From Stentor roeselii (Eukaryota > Ciliophora > Heterotrichea > Heterotrichida > Stentoridae): 64,000 nucleotides of DNA. The stretch is taken from the NCBI GenBank assembly GCA_006503475.1, contig RSEH01000001.1:124001-188000 (forward strand), written 5' to 3'. A program made the translations under genes and the position numbers. A model generated the notes under the pieces. It was not told the DNA's origin, searched no databases, and was given only the letters and a program-made list of their open reading frames with translations. Every line of letters starts with the position of its first letter. Positions within the stretch are counted from its first letter, which is position 1. Positions 15,005 to 60,763 of this stretch are shown here, one piece after another.

Positions 15005-15338
15005 GGATTTTTTAGATAAGTTTAGAGATTGATGAATTTTTTATTGTTGGGAATTAGGATTAATAGAGGGAGATTTAAAGGTTAAATTTGGATATTTTGT
15101 TAATTGTTATTGAATTTTGATGGATTGATTAATATTTTGTTGATTTTTATCGAATTTTGATGGATGAATAATATTTTGTAAATTCAGTTTAGATTTTTTA
15201 GGTTAGCATTGTAAATACAAGTGTTCCTACAAAAATTTTTCCTTTTATTCTAGAATCAATAACAAATTACGAATAAACCTTAGATAATTATTCTCCAATT
15301 AACTAGAAACGATCTTCAATACCTTTATAATACACCAA
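15005..15338. other. Intergenic, imperfect AT-rich direct repeat
   Basis: There is no gene. The first 200 bp are T- and G-rich with almost no C, which is the 3' flank type seen throughout this window. Between about 15100 and 15180 a roughly 40-bp unit occurs twice with small differences; both copies contain GAATTTTGATGGAT followed by AATATTTTGT. Nothing else is recognised. Confidence 0.6.
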
Positions 15339-53530: not shown

Positions 53531-55243
53531 ATGGAACCCTTTTCTCACTCAAGCCCAATATCAGTATACCTGCGTTTGCGACCATTATCCCTAAGCGAAA
53601 AGACATCAAACGATTCAGAAGTATGGTCAACAAGTAAAACCTCAGCCTATCTCTCTTCAGAAGCCATAATTTCCGGATCAACCCCTTCCGCAAGTTCCTC
53701 TTTCCTAACAATTCCAAGCATATCCGACCTACGCAAACTGAATTCGATTCCAAAATCATTTACCTTCAGTACTCTCCACTTAGGCGAATGTTTTCCAAGC
53801 ACATCATCAAACGAGTGCATATTCGAAGTGACTTGCCGGCCTTACCTTCCACTGGTATTAGAAGGTTTCAACTTCACATTATTCGCATTCGGCCAAACTG
53901 GTTCTGGAAAGACTTTCACGATGCTTGGTTCAGAGTCAATCGATTTTTTACGTCACAAGCGAAGACGTTCAGCCTCTCCTTGTCGGAACCTCATAGGCCG
54001 TGTGAAGATTCAGCATAAAGGCCTCAGTCTTCTGTTTATCGACGAGATGATGGAGCTGGCAAGAGCCAGCAACAAAGAAATCAGAGTTCTTTGTAGTTAC
54101 TTTGAAATTTATAATGAAAATGTATTTGACCTGCTGGGTAATCAAGACAGTCTCCCTGTTTGTGAAGACCCGGCACGAGGGTTCTTCATCAAAGGACTCA
54201 CTGAAAAACCGGTCAAGACCTTTGAAGAGACTTTGGAGTTGATTTGCTTGGCTGAAGGAAATAGAAGGTTCAGCTCGACTGAGCAGAACTCGCATAGTTC
54301 TCGCTCTCATGTCGTCATCAGACTCGTTGTTTTGACTGGAAATGAAAATTTTGGCTTTGAAAGCGTTATTAACTTTGTCGATCTTGCAGGGTCTGAAAGA
54401 CTCAACTCAAAAAAAGTACTGAATGCTGAGTCTATGAATGAAGGAAAACATATTAATACGTCTTTGTTTTACTTGTGCTCTGTTATACTGAAGCTTTCTG
54501 AGAAAGCTTCACAGGGATCACATGTGCCTTATCGAAATTCAAATTTGACAAAGATTTTAAGGAATTCTTTAGGAGGCAATTCTTTTACTTCTATTATTTG
54601 TACCGCGTCGCCGAGTGCTGCGGCTTGTGACATGACTCTTGGAACTATGACTTTTGCGGACTCAGCGAAAAAAGTGACGAATAAAGTCTTTCAAAACTTT
54701 CGAAGTACTTCTACAAATGATTTGTTAAAATCTCTGCAAAGTGAATTACTTCAGTTAAAGACTTCGAACCTTTCAAGGCAAATTTTAAAGGAAACATGTG
54801 AAAAATCGTCACAAACTTTAGAGCAGGAGAAATCGAGTGTTGAAGAAGATGATCAAAAGAAAGGAATAGTTTTACTTCAAGAGTCTCTCCAAGCTTTAGA
54901 GTTAGAAAACAGGTCTCAGCAGCTGAAACTGCAAGATTCGCTTAAAGAGCAAAACAAGCTAAGGTCAATACAAAGTGACTACGAATCTAAATTAGCATCT
55001 TTAGAAGAAAAAATAAAAGACCTACAGACCAAAAACTCAATTCTCGAAGGAAAAAGTTTACCAAAGATGAAATACGACCAAATCGAAGACCTTGAAAAAT
55101 TCTACAACCGAGCCATTGACCTGGCAAAGGACTTTAAAATTAACAGGTTCAAGTCGCGAGTGGAAGAACGCAAATCTCAATCTTCCCAAAAGCTCCGAAA
55201 GGTCCTTCAGCCGATATTAATCGACAAAGAAAACATTAATTAA
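53531..55243 (+). CDS. Kinesin with N-terminal motor and short coiled-coil
   Basis: A 570-residue kinesin. The motor domain (about 8-400) has the start VYLRLRPL, P-loop GQTGSGKT (121-128), switch I NSHSSRSH, switch II DLAGSE and the neck-proximal YRNSNLTKILRNSLGGNSFT. All nucleotide-binding motifs are intact, so it should be an active ATP-driven motor. A coiled coil follows (about 405-520) and a basic tail. The family closest by pattern is kinesin-7 (INTSLFYLCSVILKLS and NSLGGNSFTSIICT), but the tail is much shorter than CENP-E, so the class is tentative. The next gene starts 19 bp after its stop. Confidence 0.9.
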   Translation: MEPFSHSSPISVYLRLRPLSLSEKTSNDSEVWSTSKTSAYLSSEAIISGSTPSASSSFLTIPSISDLRKLNSIPKSFTFSTLHLGECFPSTSSNECIFEVTCRPYLPLVLEGFNFTLFAFGQTGSGKTFTMLGSESIDFLRHKRRRSASPCRNLIGRVKIQHKGLSLLFIDEMMELARASNKEIRVLCSYFEIYNENVFDLLGNQDSLPVCEDPARGFFIKGLTEKPVKTFEETLELICLAEGNRRFSSTEQNSHSSRSHVVIRLVVLTGNENFGFESVINFVDLAGSERLNSKKVLNAESMNEGKHINTSLFYLCSVILKLSEKASQGSHVPYRNSNLTKILRNSLGGNSFTSIICTASPSAAACDMTLGTMTFADSAKKVTNKVFQNFRSTSTNDLLKSLQSELLQLKTSNLSRQILKETCEKSSQTLEQEKSSVEEDDQKKGIVLLQESLQALELENRSQQLKLQDSLKEQNKLRSIQSDYESKLASLEEKIKDLQTKNSILEGKSLPKMKYDQIEDLEKFYNRAIDLAKDFKINRFKSRVEERKSQSSQKLRKVLQPILIDKENIN

Positions 55244-55262: not shown

Positions 55263-56710
55263 ATGAAAGTCAATTTCAATAAAGTCCTAAACCACTCCCT
55301 TCAAATAAAGTCCTGCAAAGAAATCATTCAAGAGCAAAAAGAAATGAAAAAAGCAACTTACAAGCGAAGTGGATCTGAACTTTTAACTATCGGGATTGTT
55401 AAAGGAAAACAACTCATTCAGGCAAAGATGATTGATGAGAAATATGAAGAGTTTAAGAGAGATGTTGGAAGGATGGAGCAGTATATGATTAGTTATATTC
55501 ATAAATTGTCGGGAAAACTTGTTAGGTTCGCTGATGATCAACGAAAAACTTTGAAACAAACTGCAGCGGATAAAAACTCGGAATTTGTACCTGGAAATAT
55601 GCCAAAATTTGAATATAGCAAAACACGAATTGGAAATTTTAAAAGAGCTACACAGGTTTTGCTTAGTCTTATTCATATCAAACCTGATGAAAAACCTTTG
55701 GATCATGCTTTTGAGGAGATTGAAAGATTAACTGGGGTCATTATCGATTTGGAAAAAGAAATATCTGAGCTAAAAAACGGAAAACCTGAACCACCAGTAG
55801 AAGTCCCTGTAATTGAAGTAGTAGACTTCGGTAAATTGACTTATTACGAGAAAGGAGAATACGTGAAGAATTTAGGTATTGATACCGGCTATTTACGGAA
55901 TATCACAGGATACGTGATGACAAAAGATGGGGGCTATATATTAGTTTGTACTCTCCACTCAGTCTGTGACCTAAAATAGGCAGTAGTCCTTATAAGACAG
56001 TACCCTAAACTCAGAAAGTAAAGGATTTAAAGTCAGTACCTTAAATCCAGTTGGTAAAACCAACAAAGTCAGTATTTTCAAAGAAGAAGGTGAAAAAAAT
56101 CAGTCTGTACCCATTATTCAGGTAAAAAAAAATAGTGAGTCAATTTTATCCAGATAGTAAACCAAAAACAGTCAGTTCAATTCATTCAGTGAGTAACCCA
56201 AACAAAGAAGGTAACAATTATCCAGTCGGTACCCATAAAAAGACTGTAACTCCAAACCAGTTGGTACAACTCACGCAGTTTGTATTCCCAAACAGTTGGT
56301 AGAAATAAAAAGACAGTAAAAACCATCCAGTCAGTACCTCCAAACCAGGTTTTTTCCATTCAGTTCGTATTTTTCATCAAGAAAGTACCAGCCAATCAGT
56401 CAGTCCACTCTAAAAAGATGGTTAAAATAAAAAGACAGTACCCTCTCCACAGAAAGTAACTTCCACTCAGAACGTACTTATTCCCCAGAATGTTCAATTC
56501 AAACAGTCTGTATCCTTAAAAAGTCAGTCATTTTCAACCAGCCTGTATCCTCTAAAAGCAAGTCCTGACTACTTAGAATGTTTTATCCAAAAAGACAGTC
56601 ATTCCTAACAAGTGTTTGTTTATGATGCCAAGTCCGGAAAAGCGCTGACTGCCTTCAACCAGTCTCAACAAGAATGTACAGAATGGCTGAAAAAAATAAA
56701 CTCTAACTAA
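55263..56710 (+). CDS. PH-like domain protein split by 38 mini-introns into one-codon exons
   Basis: The reconstructed protein has 295 residues. Exon 1 (55263-55947) encodes 228 residues plus the first base of the next codon: a helical N-terminal half (about 1-150) and the start of a beta-rich domain. Then 38 introns of 14 or 15 nt (55948-56612) are separated by 35 three-nt exons. Their 36 split codons continue the beta domain (starting FCNKIIVKV, ending TSKYM). The last exon (56613-56710) adds FVYDAKSGKALTAF and a helix with TEWLKKI, like the C-terminal tryptophan helix of PH domains. No stop occurs in the joined frame, and the ends of the array fix the same phase. An alternative ending at the TAG at 55979 would truncate the domain. 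The stop TAA abuts the stop of the minus-strand channel gene. A PH fold is inferred, not searched. Confidence 0.82.
55948..56612 (+). other. Array of 38 tandem mini-introns with 35 three-nucleotide exons
   Basis: Reading from 55948: every unit is GT...AG of 14 or 15 nt followed by exactly three nucleotides, then the next GT. My count is 28 introns of 15 nt and 10 of 14 nt (560 nt) plus 35 x 3 nt of exon (105 nt), which sums to 665 nt, the exact length of the region. Donors are GTA 26 times, GTC 5, GTT 5 and GTG 2. At 56121/56122 and 56348/56349 two introns abut without an exon. Examples: GTACTCTCCACTCAG at 55948, GTAAACCAAAAACAG at 56157, GTACCTCCAAACCAG at 56334, GTCATTCCTAACAAG at 56598. 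Microexons include tct, gca, aca, aaa, tca, ttg, aag. All junctions are phase 1, fixed by both flanking exons; in phase 0 two microexons would be TGA. Confidence 0.85.
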
Positions 56711-59700
56711 TTATTTCAACGTTCTGCTCCTTGTAATGAAAGACTTTAAACTTGCTTCTTCTCTTTTCACTTTTTCGATCAGGTCTATCTCTTGCTTTCG
56801 ATTATCAGTTAAAGTCTTTTCGAACCATTCAAGTTCTTTCTTGCCTGCTTGCACCAGCCCACTTACTTCTTCTTTAATTAAAGTTACTTTTTCGGCTAAT
56901 TGTTGGATTTTTCTTGCTCTTCTGTCATCTTGAGACTCGTCTACACTTTCTTGGGAACAAATTTGGATGAAGTGGCGAGTTGAAGCTGCTCTTCCCCAGA
57001 CTGCCATTGGCTCATGTTCTGATAAAAGTTCTGCCAAAGCTTTAAGATCTTCGATGACCAGGTTGTCCTTCAGTCTTGCAAATGTGTCATTGAAAATAGA
57101 TACTAGAAGGTTCACCATTAACAGTGGGTTTATGAGCGTCGCTAGTAAAAAACAAGCTAAAAGAGTAAAACTCTGTCTATTAGGGTCAGTCGTGCTCGAA
57201 TAATTTTCCAGTTTAAACGCCCCGAAATTGATCGAATACGTCGTAGTAAAAGCATCAAAAAAGTTGAGATTTTCATCTAAAATCATAAAAAGACAAGTAA
57301 AAGCTGAAGTAGTCATAGCCAAAACAAGTAAAAATACCAAAGAGTCCTTAATAATATCTCTAAAAACCTTAATCATGCTGCGCGTTCTATCAAAAAGCTC
57401 AAACAACGATAGACCTCTAAGCAAGAATAGTAAAACGAGACTGATCACAATAATCTGATAAATTTTCTTATGAGTCTCAGTATCAAAGGTAGACTTTTCA
57501 TTCCCATAGAAAAACTGATACTTAACAACTAAAAACATGTAACAACATAAAACTCTTGCCAAATCAATAAAATTCCACAAACTGTTCATATAAGACTTAA
57601 ACCCGATGCAAACTTGCATAATTTCATTGACCAAAAATAAAGAATTTGTAGCGAAAATGATAATCGTGGAGATCCAGTCGAAAGAAACAGAGTATCCGAC
57701 GTAATAAAGAGTAAAAAACGAAATGATCACATAAAAAATATCATGTAGCAAAACAAATTTCTTCACTTGTCTCCACTTGTAAAGAATAATTGACCTGACC
57801 AGTTGGGTTCTAAAGACTTCATTATCTGAACAGTTATTCAAACTATCAATGAATTTTAAACTTTCCAAGCTACCTAGAGCGAGGTTCATTCGAAATGCGC
57901 TGACTCTGAAAACGATGCTGATTTCTTCTAAGGTTTCTCCTTTCAACATAAGAAACTTGTTCTCATCAATCATATAACTGGGACTAGTGATGACCACTCC
58001 TGACTTATCAATCAAATTTCCATAGTTCTTCAAACCACGTTGACTAACAACAGGAAAAGCCAAAGAATAAACCATTGAAAGACTTGGAGGACTAAAATTA
58101 TTCAAATTCGACAAGTCTTCTTCTATAGACGCTAGAATTTTCGGGTTATTTTCAGCGATTTCAACGACCTTTGCTAAAACGATTTCAATTATTTCTCTAT
58201 TTCTGAGTTCTAAAGCTATACTCAAAGGTGACCTTCCGTCAGTCATACGTATGAAAGGGCATCCATCTTCAAAAGCTTTTTCAATAAGAGCTTTGTTTTT
58301 AAGCAGAACGAAAACATGAAGCATATTAATGCAATCAGGAAAAGCGACCCATTGATAGACCCTGTAATTATATCTTGACCTGATGCGTTTATGCGAGATG
58401 CCTTCAATCGCTGCCAGGAAATAAAGAGAAGAAGAACTCGGACCAAGGAGGATGAAAGGAAAATCTTCATCTTGATGCCTTCGAATAAATTTCTGAAGAC
58501 CTGCCTTGACAACTCCTTTAATATTAAACATTTCTCTTGTTTTTTCTAGAGTCTTGGCAATGGAAGGGTCTGAAAAAGACACGATATTTGTAGAGTTTGA
58601 GTAAAAAATCTGATTTGAATTCGTTCTTATCTTTAGGTTTGTTGATCGAAATTTAAACTTCCAGACAAGTACCTCATCTTTCAAGTTCCAGATCTGTAGC
58701 CCGTCGCTTTTCCCAACAATTAGAAACTTTTCATTAGAATTCAAAGAAACCGATGAAATATTTTTGTAAAATCCGATCAAATGACCAGTTCTTCGTTTTT
58801 TCGATTCTGTTGAAAAAGATGAAGAAATTCCTTTTTCAAGTAAAATATTTTCAGGAGTTGACCAAGACAAAGAGATCATGTCGACGATTTCATTATCCCC
58901 AGCACAGACGATAAGAGACACACTCAGATTTATGCAGATCTTGAGACTTCCTTTCGCAAAAGTGAGAACCTGTGTCCTTTCTGTGAGGTCTGGACTAAGA
59001 AAAACGACTTCAGTGTCAGTTGTATAAACCAGATAATCCTTCACCGATCCTATTTGAAAGATATTTTTTTCTTCAATCGGAATCGGCTTAACTTCAAAAT
59101 TTTCCCATATCTGAAAAACGATGATTTTAAAAATAACGATATTTCCAGTGCTACATTCTTCAACATAAACAATAAAATCTTTACTTTTCCCGAAAGTCAT
59201 CAATTTGACAGGATTTTTCGCTTGAATGATAGACTGGACGCGATTTTCAAGTCCCAAGTCAACATAGCAGATATTCCCATCACATTCCCAAGCGATTCTT
59301 TTCTGTAAGCAACAAACAAGTGAAATAGGACTTTTACTTTTATTTCTATGTAAAGTCTTTACTTCCTCTCCAATAAGCAGCACTTCTCCCGCAGTGGCGA
59401 CGACGAGTTGAGACTCATCAGAAAAAAATTCAGTGACTTCATCTTCAAAGTGAAAAGACCTGTTGATAGTCTTTTCTTGCTTTCGGATTCTGACCAGGTC
59501 CGACCCGTGCCCCTCGCAATATAAAAAAAAGTAGTCAGTTTTAATAGGATTCACGAAAAGCACTGGAAGTGAGTTGAACTTAAGCAACATGACGCAAGTC
59601 ATTGAAACTAAATCCCAGAACTTGCAACAAGGACCTTCTTTTTCAGAACTACCGCCGATAACAACGACTCCAGCTTCAAAGACATCTGAGAAGTTCCAAG

Positions 59701-60412
59701 TGCCGTTGGATTCTTGAAGAGTTGAAGAATTTCCAGAAGATAAAGAAACTATTTTCGCTTCTAGTCCTTCTTCAGCGTAAAGAATTGAATTGTTTTCGTG
59801 AATAAAAAGTAAAATAGTGACGTTTTCAGCGTTTATGTTGATGATTTCTTGTTTTTCTGTTAGATTTCTAAAGCAAATTCCGGTGCTGTGGTAAAAAAGC
59901 ATCGCTTTTTTGCCTTGATATGAACAAAACTGGCTTAGTCTCGGATTTTTACAGAGTAAAGGATGGTCAGGGGTGTGTTCAAAGCCTTCAGTTTCAGAAA
60001 ACTCGAAAAGACTGACGGAATCTGAATTATCAGCAACCCAGACCTGATGAGAGTCGATAAAAAAGTGGTCAATCGGGGCTTTACTTTCGATAAAGGCCAC
60101 TTTTTGATTATCTTTCCAGAAAATCAGCTGCGAGTCTTCACCAGATGTAAAAAAAAATAACTCAAGGGCCTTGATGCAAGTGACTCGCCCTTTATGCGCC
60201 TGGTCAATGTGAGTCTCTTCCAATTCAAAGTCATCCACAAAGATTAAACTCCCGTCGCTAGTCCCTATCAAAATACTTCCATCTTCTCTACTTTCCATAC
60301 AAGTAACTTTCCATGAAAGTGCCTTTTCCCATTTCCTTCTTTCAAGTTCACCTGCAATTTTTTTAACCAATTCTTCCACGTCTTTGTTAGAAGAACCTTG
60401 AAATCCTGACAT
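56711..60412 (-). CDS. WD40-ankyrin-ion channel protein (TRP-like)
   Basis: A 1233-residue protein. The first half (about 30-650) is a series of WD40-like beta-propeller repeats (for example IFVDD, LIFWKDNQK, LQIWNLKDE), likely two propellers. Ankyrin-like repeats follow (about 720-800; DGRSPLSIALELRNREIIEIVL), then a six-TM ion-transport domain (about 915-1130) with a pore loop in YSINFGAFKLENYS, and a C-terminal coiled coil. This matches the ciliate family of large WD40- and ankyrin-linked channels related to TRP/polycystin. The filter is not a potassium signature, so cation selectivity is unknown. The ATG at 60412 is preferred over one 27 codons upstream, which would overlap the divergent Yippee gene. 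Its stop directly abuts that of the array-containing gene. Confidence 0.85.
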   Translation of the reverse strand: MSGFQGSSNKDVEELVKKIAGELERRKWEKALSWKVTCMESREDGSILIGTSDGSLIFVDDFELEETHIDQAHKGRVTCIKALELFFFTSGEDSQLIFWKDNQKVAFIESKAPIDHFFIDSHQVWVADNSDSVSLFEFSETEGFEHTPDHPLLCKNPRLSQFCSYQGKKAMLFYHSTGICFRNLTEKQEIININAENVTILLFIHENNSILYAEEGLEAKIVSLSSGNSSTLQESNGTWNFSDVFEAGVVVIGGSSEKEGPCCKFWDLVSMTCVMLLKFNSLPVLFVNPIKTDYFFLYCEGHGSDLVRIRKQEKTINRSFHFEDEVTEFFSDESQLVVATAGEVLLIGEEVKTLHRNKSKSPISLVCCLQKRIAWECDGNICYVDLGLENRVQSIIQAKNPVKLMTFGKSKDFIVYVEECSTGNIVIFKIIVFQIWENFEVKPIPIEEKNIFQIGSVKDYLVYTTDTEVVFLSPDLTERTQVLTFAKGSLKICINLSVSLIVCAGDNEIVDMISLSWSTPENILLEKGISSSFSTESKKRRTGHLIGFYKNISSVSLNSNEKFLIVGKSDGLQIWNLKDEVLVWKFKFRSTNLKIRTNSNQIFYSNSTNIVSFSDPSIAKTLEKTREMFNIKGVVKAGLQKFIRRHQDEDFPFILLGPSSSSLYFLAAIEGISHKRIRSRYNYRVYQWVAFPDCINMLHVFVLLKNKALIEKAFEDGCPFIRMTDGRSPLSIALELRNREIIEIVLAKVVEIAENNPKILASIEEDLSNLNNFSPPSLSMVYSLAFPVVSQRGLKNYGNLIDKSGVVITSPSYMIDENKFLMLKGETLEEISIVFRVSAFRMNLALGSLESLKFIDSLNNCSDNEVFRTQLVRSIILYKWRQVKKFVLLHDIFYVIISFFTLYYVGYSVSFDWISTIIIFATNSLFLVNEIMQVCIGFKSYMNSLWNFIDLARVLCCYMFLVVKYQFFYGNEKSTFDTETHKKIYQIIVISLVLLFLLRGLSLFELFDRTRSMIKVFRDIIKDSLVFLLVLAMTTSAFTCLFMILDENLNFFDAFTTTYSINFGAFKLENYSSTTDPNRQSFTLLACFLLATLINPLLMVNLLVSIFNDTFARLKDNLVIEDLKALAELLSEHEPMAVWGRAASTRHFIQICSQESVDESQDDRRARKIQQLAEKVTLIKEEVSGLVQAGKKELEWFEKTLTDNRKQEIDLIEKVKREEASLKSFITRSRTLK

Positions 60413-60424
60413 TTTTATAATCTG
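60413..60424. promoter_or_regulatory. 12-bp spacer between divergent start codons
   Basis: Only TTTTATAATCTG lies between the start codon of the minus-strand channel gene (60412) and the plus-strand Yippee gene (60425). All core promoter information for both must lie here or inside coding sequence. It includes a TATAA-like word. Confidence 0.6.
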
Positions 60425-60763
60425 ATGGGAAAAGAGTTCTTTCTTTACGAGGACTGCAAAAACGTTTACGTTTGTAAAGAATGCAAAAATCACTTGTCAA
60501 GTAAGTCAAAAGTAATGACCAAGAGTTTCAAAGGAAAACATGGCAGAAGTTTTTTAGTTTCAAGAATGATCAACGTGACTTACGGCGCTGAAGAAGAAAA
60601 AATTTTACTTTCAGGGATTCATTGCGTGAAAGACGTGATGTGTAAAAGATGCACGACGTACATCGGGTGGTTTTACGTGAAAGCCTACGAAGCTACTGAG
60701 AAGTACAAAGAAGGTCACTTCGTATTAGAAAGAAACCTGGTGTTAAAGGCAGACTGGGACTAG
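60425..60763 (+). CDS. Yippee-like zinc-binding protein (YPEL/Moh1 family)
   Basis: A 112-residue protein, the family's size, with nearly the full Yippee consensus: VYVCKECKNHLSSKSKVMTK, then KSFKGKHGRSFLVSRMINV, ILLSGIHCVKDVMCKRC, IGWFYVKAYEATEKYKEGHFVLE. The four zinc ligands are the two CxxC pairs (CKEC and CKRC). Yippee proteins fold like the CRBN thalidomide-binding domain and are associated with cell division, centrosomes or the GID/CTLH ubiquitin ligase in other eukaryotes. It is convergent with the PROPPIN gene 13 bp downstream. Confidence 0.95.
   Translation: MGKEFFLYEDCKNVYVCKECKNHLSSKSKVMTKSFKGKHGRSFLVSRMINVTYGAEEEKILLSGIHCVKDVMCKRCTTYIGWFYVKAYEATEKYKEGHFVLERNLVLKADWD

Follow-up and report, generated by a model that had tools for sequence, protein, structure and literature searches.

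Tandem one-codon exons predicted between tiny intron-like units in genes of Stentor roeselii

The locus and its array

The window analysed here is a 64,000-nucleotide stretch of Stentor roeselii DNA (contig RSEH01000001.1, positions 124,001 to 188,000), and coordinates are those of the window unless another locus is named. On the plus strand it carries a gene that opens with an ordinary exon, whose sequence matches five public proteins (P0001–P0005), runs into an array of short GT..AG units and closes with a last exon (Table 1). Directly upstream lies a kinesin motor gene (53531–55243, plus strand), its end separated by 19 bp from the ATG at 55263. The neighbour on the other side, a minus-strand gene (56711–60493), is arranged tail to tail with the array gene and has an Ion_trans channel domain as well as WD40-type stretches. 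A tandem repeat of period 40 and about 2.7 copies is present at 15092–15198.

Table 1. Predicted layout of the array gene, in window coordinates.
Feature	Position	Strand	Description
First exon, ordinary	55263..55947	+	ATG at 55263; 228 codons plus one base; phase-1 end (...GGYILV plus T)
Array	55948..56612	+	38 GT..AG introns of 14–15 nt and 35 exons of 3 nt (exact parse)
Array intron 1	55948–55962	+	15 nt
One-codon exon TCT	55963–55965	+	between array introns 1 and 2
Array intron 2	55966–55979	+	14 nt
Introns 10 and 11	56107..56135	+	abutting AG/GT; zero-length exon at 56121/56122
Introns 23 and 24	56334..56363	+	abutting AG/GT; zero-length exon at 56348/56349
Last exon	56613..56710	+	...FVYDAKSGKALTAFNQSQQECTEWLKKINSN; stop TAA at 56708–56710

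A preliminary description of this DNA had read the array as an exact tiling by GT..AG units always three nucleotides apart. The 665 nt do parse without remainder into units of 14 or 15 nt (28 × 15 nt and 10 × 14 nt of intron plus 35 × 3 nt of exon), a GT start and an AG end in 38/38 units being given by the parse itself. The spacing claim holds in 35 of the 37 gaps, the other two being 0 nt long. Joined in phase 1, the pieces give 36 split codons without a stop (FCNKIIVKVLNIMKVDFVFDIIQINDKKQFFTSKYM) and enter the last exon in its open frame, so that the parse confirms what had been claimed on this point; read in phase 0 or in phase 2, the exon string contains two stops in either case. Because the 3-nt exons sum to a multiple of three, skipping the whole array is in frame too, and frame continuity alone is therefore no proof of one-codon exons.

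The genome assembly examined comprises 44.4 Mb in 522 contigs, from which a background sample of 264 kb was assembled (the window and 20 sampled 10-kb pieces). No other chain of at least four units with 3-nt exons, or with a mixture of 0- and 3-nt exons, was found in this sample, and with the array masked just nine units lay in chains of at least three. Chance, which had been dismissed as an explanation from the outset, indeed fails, nothing comparable being present in the 264 kb. Tandem Repeats Finder at its default score did not report the window array. The letters of its units differ from one another, which makes the array a grammar rather than a fresh repeat; a profile of four units works on the window. 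Introns of 15 nt with GT–AG ends are also indicated elsewhere in the genome, where 24 candidates contain an in-frame stop and are flanked by 60 open codons both before and after, compared with 1–7 for eight control dinucleotide pairs. A coding-score search for introns found none at a strict threshold, and at a looser one it found eight GT–AG introns of 15 nt against 0–1 for nine controls.

Array loci, codon order and intron geometry

The genome was searched with a pattern of 29 places that spans two one-codon exons, the reversed pattern serving as control. It gave 35 matches and the control eight. Twelve of the 35 fell in the window array, four at one place on C98 and two on C30; the remaining 17 were single. 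Of these, 13 belong to chains of at least four units, two more to three-unit chains and the last two to no chain. A protein search with the joined sequence of locus L049 yielded at least 137 matches in the genome, often several per gene, with 121 of 232 candidates scored. Its C-terminal part had 67 matches in its own genome at E up to 10, and 46 of these (L049 included) begin at residues 22–29, around the array/exon border at 26/27. Twenty places were fetched from the C-terminal search, 18 of which are among the 46 border-starting matches, and all 20 contain chains of at least four units by the grammar alone. Arrays were seen at 23 of the 46, these 23 being the ones examined. Of the 40 loci of this genome that were examined, 36 contain chains of at least four units, and the array is consequently not confined to a single gene.

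A Viterbi decoder produced a joined reading for 17 of the 20 fragments, with 8–18 introns each when single upstream introns are counted; for eight of the 17 a stop made it necessary to trim one or two 3'-terminal codons. Being a model, the decoder is fallible: it called a false intron downstream of the window array, and some of the zero-length exons that it reports may be errors. In the decoded layouts array loci also carry single introns of the same kind. In L043 (C135:15001–20500), the largest decoded gene, the decoder placed 69 introns together with 24 exons of zero length, almost all of them in some 1.2 kb.

Codon order was examined in chains of at least five units from 38 loci, which were delimited by the grammar alone without use of the reading frame. 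L030 and L039, in which no chains were found, were left out of this set, and nine 1.2-kb pieces were swapped for longer ones covering them. The yield was 41 chains with 418 introns in 30 of the 38 loci. Stops make up 2 of 353 joined codons in phase 1, compared with 20 of 394 in phase 0 and 31 of 353 in phase 2, and shuffling the exon order within chains gave a mean of 16.7 stops with a minimum of six (2000 runs). The corresponding figures for the 20 protein-search loci are 0/143, 8/162 and 15/143; as the array loci are related, these tests are not independent. Both phase-1 stops sit in L045 (C247), the sole such locus, which may be a decaying copy or may use other exon lengths. We regard the avoidance of stops in the true order and phase as the strongest evidence in the DNA that successive one-codon exons are probably joined and translated in order. 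For the window array taken by itself, 7.4% of shuffles were free of stops, 1.5% reached its codon-usage score and 50% reached its in-frame/out-of-frame score. Stentor uses the standard genetic code. In the grammar-only chains TGA is absent from phase 1 but common in the other phases (17 in phase 0 and 15 in phase 2), and thus seems to be a stop here; in Blepharisma it encodes Trp (PMC9942806). Taken with the 15-nt introns, this agrees better with a Stentor-like heterotrich than with Blepharisma.

Introns of Stentor are mostly 15–16 nt long, and their branch-point A occupies position 10 in those of 15 nt and position 11 in those of 16 nt (PMC9505925). In the window array an A stands at position 10 (A10) in 25 of the 28 15-mers and in all ten 14-mers (35/38); among other GT..AG 15-mers of the window the share is 27% (n = 475). 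G accounts for 2.5% of the 408 inner bases of the array introns. Over the chains of at least five units at 30 loci, A10 is found in 376 of 418 introns: 55 of 56 introns of 14 nt, 192 of 213 of 15 nt and 129 of 149 of 16 nt. Part of these loci were found by the pattern, which demands A10 twice per match; in the 20 protein-search loci, which are free of this bias, A10 is present in 151 of 169 (1/1, 59/64 and 91/104 for 14-, 15- and 16-mers, respectively). Since the grammar fixes GT and AG alone, the A at position 10 is independent evidence. The 15-mers of the arrays agree in A10 with the 15-nt introns of Stentor described in PMC9505925, whereas the 16-mers, in which A occurs at position 11 in 44 of 149, differ from the A11 given there for 16-nt introns, and introns of 14 nt (10/38 in the window) lie outside the range that it gives. 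Intron-like units ending in GG or CG instead of AG occur at L024 1331–1345 and L025 1785–1800, and may reflect a non-canonical acceptor, a sequencing error or decay.

The array start in public proteins and the encoded segment

The five public proteins are 66–100% identical to the query over 77% of its length and stop a few residues past ILVC, where the plain frame enters intron 1. All five thus end where the frame meets the array, which is a warning for gene prediction. Their tails were back-translated with all codon choices. That of P0002 has a single solution, in which a 15-nt and then a 14-nt intron flank the 3-nt exon T-N-T; each of the two introns can carry A10, and their lengths are those of introns 1 and 2 of the window. 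P0003 and P0004 form a close pair whose tails fit 15 + 3 + 15 + 3 + GT, with exons worked out by hand as TNT and GNA (TCT and GCA in the window); a 13 + 17 solution exists for them as well. Two 13-nt alternatives are likewise compatible with the window tail itself, where the DNA shows 15 + 14, and the tail of P0005 is too short for the comparison. Random tails fit a 14–16-nt intron with A10, an exon and GT in 2.5% of cases, and a 15-nt intron, an exon and a complete second intron in 0.9%. The residues encoded by intron letters diverge (CTLHS versus CMDYE) beside an exon that is 88% identical. Judged from these tails, the array start is conserved in other species. The comparison of orthologues that had been proposed for the array accordingly turned out in its favour, the protein tails fitting the same array start with different intron letters. 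No transcript or peptide was found, nor any spliced homologue in the protein collection, and viral contigs and prokaryote contigs yielded no relatives.

Members with short arrays share an approximate layout, ...FSNDGKYxFF followed by 7–14 array residues and then xVWNLETK...W..RYPEC. They were compared in 16 of 19 joined sequences, L055, L068 and L071 being dropped because the array part misfits the text pattern. All 16 begin the array with Tyr, encoded by TAT in 13 and by TAC in three, a silent difference at the first split codon and across an intron; the joint after the first array intron is AG/GT in all 16, and 15 have L, M, F, V or I as their last array residue. At seven places fetched from the genome the frame runs uninterrupted through the same segment, with search matches that are individually weak (E of 0.001 to 0.15) but alignments that are plain. 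Examples are the unsplit DDKYFLYQIHYHYMFIWNIDEK, set against NDDKYIFYylsyddymYVWNLETK, and NDDRFVVSADRFNGISVFSLEKK...KDWLERYPE. L079, L080 and L081 were read further, and Pfam was run on L079 and L081. Both have a Cys/His-rich start like that of the array genes, match Pfam WD40 and carry the short-array segment near the C-terminus, and in L079 the best propeller match extends to residue 659 of 689, through the segment. It is therefore most likely, on their flanks and this alignment of sequences, that the short arrays write the strand–turn–strand hairpin of a WD40-type blade. The joined array proteins gave no match when tested against Pfam WD40, and are filed as resembling a WD40 blade and not as WD40 members.

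Long-array members, the window gene included, share the layout, with DGGYILV before the array and FVYDAKSGKALTAFNQSQQECTEWLKK after it, and the putative assignment of the window gene to a blade is made by layout only. Neither the joined window protein nor its last 107 residues matched Pfam or PDB, and the PH-like domain that the preliminary description had proposed found no backing there. The suggested beta-strand alternation of the 36 residues was not borne out either (lag-2 hydropathy autocorrelation of −0.12, reached by 3513 of 5000 shuffles). Compared with the seven unsplit last blades, the window residues score 46, where shuffles average 43.2 and reach 46 in 166 of 1000 cases, and compared with L079, L080 and L081 all 1000 of 1000 shuffles score as high or higher. 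For the 16 short arrays, the order of residues relative to the unsplit hairpins is matched by 909 of 2000 shuffles.

Proposed splicing, rival readings and probable array growth

The reading that we prefer, at a probability of roughly 0.86, is that the arrays are real coding sequence in one-codon exons, interrupted by tiny spliceosomal introns of the heterotrich type that are defined as introns, removed sequentially and multiplied by duplication of units. Of this, the grammar, the phase, the codon order, the A10 geometry, the at least 36 loci and the unsplit relatives are seen in the sequence; we infer the actual splicing and its order, growth by duplication where neighbours differ and the function of the proteins. 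The distance from GT to A10 is constant and just the last 4–6 nt vary, which would make each intron its own recognition unit, consisting of a 5' splice site, the A at position 10 and an AG 4–6 nt beyond. If the intron is recognized as a unit, the length of the exon becomes irrelevant; exon definition would hardly be workable on 3 nt. The introns would probably be removed one by one, mostly 5' to 3', each removal lengthening the upstream exon by one codon and bringing it to the next GT, and the AG/GT joints without an exon could act as ratchet points. A further-reaching version, to which we give slightly less than even odds, is that of a coding minisatellite decoded by splicing in a gene family, with 36 array loci seen and further ones expected. 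Its repeat unit would consist of an intron with a single codon; the hairpin would be edited residue by residue with the frame kept, and some 7 to 70 introns would be ratcheted out.

The array might instead be removed as one long intron, from the GT at 55948 to the AG at 56612, with the units a decayed repeat and GGYILV joined to the last exon. The skip product is in frame, the AG/GT sites without an exon would fit, and the joined window residues have no significant domain match; yet stops are avoided just in the true codon order and phase, and A10 is kept in most units, where a decaying repeat would lose it. The first split codon, moreover, encodes Tyr in 16 members despite changes between TAT and TAC, residues fill the interval between the flanks in unsplit relatives, and the Stentor introns described in PMC9505925 are 15–16 nt long, so that a single long intron appears improbable. 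Mixed splicing, in which frequent skipping from any donor to a later acceptor would give in-frame proteins of varied length, is compatible with the preferred reading. With window exons all of 3 or 0 nt and introns in phase 1, every such pairing keeps the frame; but arrays that grow by duplicating units, given some tolerance of errors, would be frame-proof as well, and we think frequent skipping rather unlikely.

Translational bypassing has a known case in yeast mitochondria, and tandem short inserts between codons are formally alike. That ribosomes hop over the units is nevertheless extremely improbable, as the inserts bear GT, A10 and AG like the introns of the host, and array genes also hold single introns of the same kind. 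Excision of the units at the DNA level, as germline-limited inserts, would have a parallel in the short DNA inserts that ciliates remove, as reported in PMC9942806. We consider it very improbable: the units are GT..AG with intron geometry, and P0001–P0004 run straight into the array, which was thus present in the sequenced DNA behind those contigs, whatever kind of sample they came from.

In the micro-exon genes of Schistosoma, short exons of 6–36 nt, for the most part divisible by three, follow one another between long introns; these genes share the exon series with the arrays, which have one-codon exons and 15-nt introns instead. The tiny introns of Stentor and Blepharisma are likewise GT..AG and mostly 15–16 nt (PMC9505925 and PMC9942806), and the arrays differ in the exons between them, mostly of 3 nt, and in the 14-nt introns that are common in some arrays. 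Most intron-bearing Stentor genes have one or few introns (PMC9505925), whereas the array genes have about 7 to 70 in series. Microexons between introns go down to 1 nt, in APC11 of Arabidopsis, and to 3 nt; those treated in PMC4674806 are single, while here a protein segment lies in consecutive one-codon exons (35 predicted in the window). Recursive splicing removes long introns stepwise at ratchet points, where an acceptor and a donor are juxtaposed (PMC8605326 and PMC6110457). That juxtaposition is shared by two places in the window array, but the array joints lie between introns of 14–16 nt and advance in one-codon steps. Introns have also been brought into coding sequence by tandem duplication (PMC4974935) or by introners (PMC4457414); in the arrays, by contrast, the unit comprises an entire intron together with its codon and recurs many times at a single site. 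No description of tandem one-codon exons was found in the open-licence PMC literature searched. Tiny introns, single microexons of 1–3 nt and recursive splicing are already known, and the arrays stand at the far end of these kinds.

Each intron is commonly regarded as a cost to fidelity, and exons of very small size as difficult to include. If 38 removals are indeed made for 36 residues, the window gene would be a direct test of intron definition, of the order of splicing and of the smallest workable exon. A gene family built codon by codon would, if true, show that introns can multiply harmlessly inside a protein. A coding minisatellite, if that is what the arrays are, would be novel both as a gene architecture and as a route by which proteins evolve, and free pairing of donors and acceptors might add sets of in-frame isoforms.

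Under the preferred reading, gain or loss of an intron-plus-codon unit (17–19 bp) would change the protein by one residue and keep the frame. Neighbouring units are identical over the 14 compared places in 3.2% of 377 pairs, compared with 0.5% of 2328 non-neighbouring pairs in the same chain and 0.3% between loci, which indicates that arrays probably grow by duplicating an intron together with its codon. Identical neighbours were found in L025, L044, L058–L062 and L065. In L025 (C30), at 1518–1589, four adjacent intron-plus-codon units are nearly identical (GTAAAATTTATARAG), with the codon ttg three times, and three of the four are alike in all 15 intron letters; on these letters the stretch is likely to be a recent unit duplication. 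L061 contains a run of similar 16-nt introns with codons for ERHEKKKQ. Neighbours in the window array are alike at a mean of 7.4 and at best 10 of 14 places, with no trace of duplication, and this array is probably old. A similar type of 16-nt intron, around GTAACCTACATYGAAG, recurs in L058–L063 and L065 (C481, C288, C124, C221, C36, C349 and C409), and the arrays of these loci end similarly in a 15-nt intron (with a TAG or AAG end), an AG/GT joint and then GTAARGGATRTAGAAG. The recurrence of both the intron type and the ending suggests, at the level of sequence, conversion or spread between loci.
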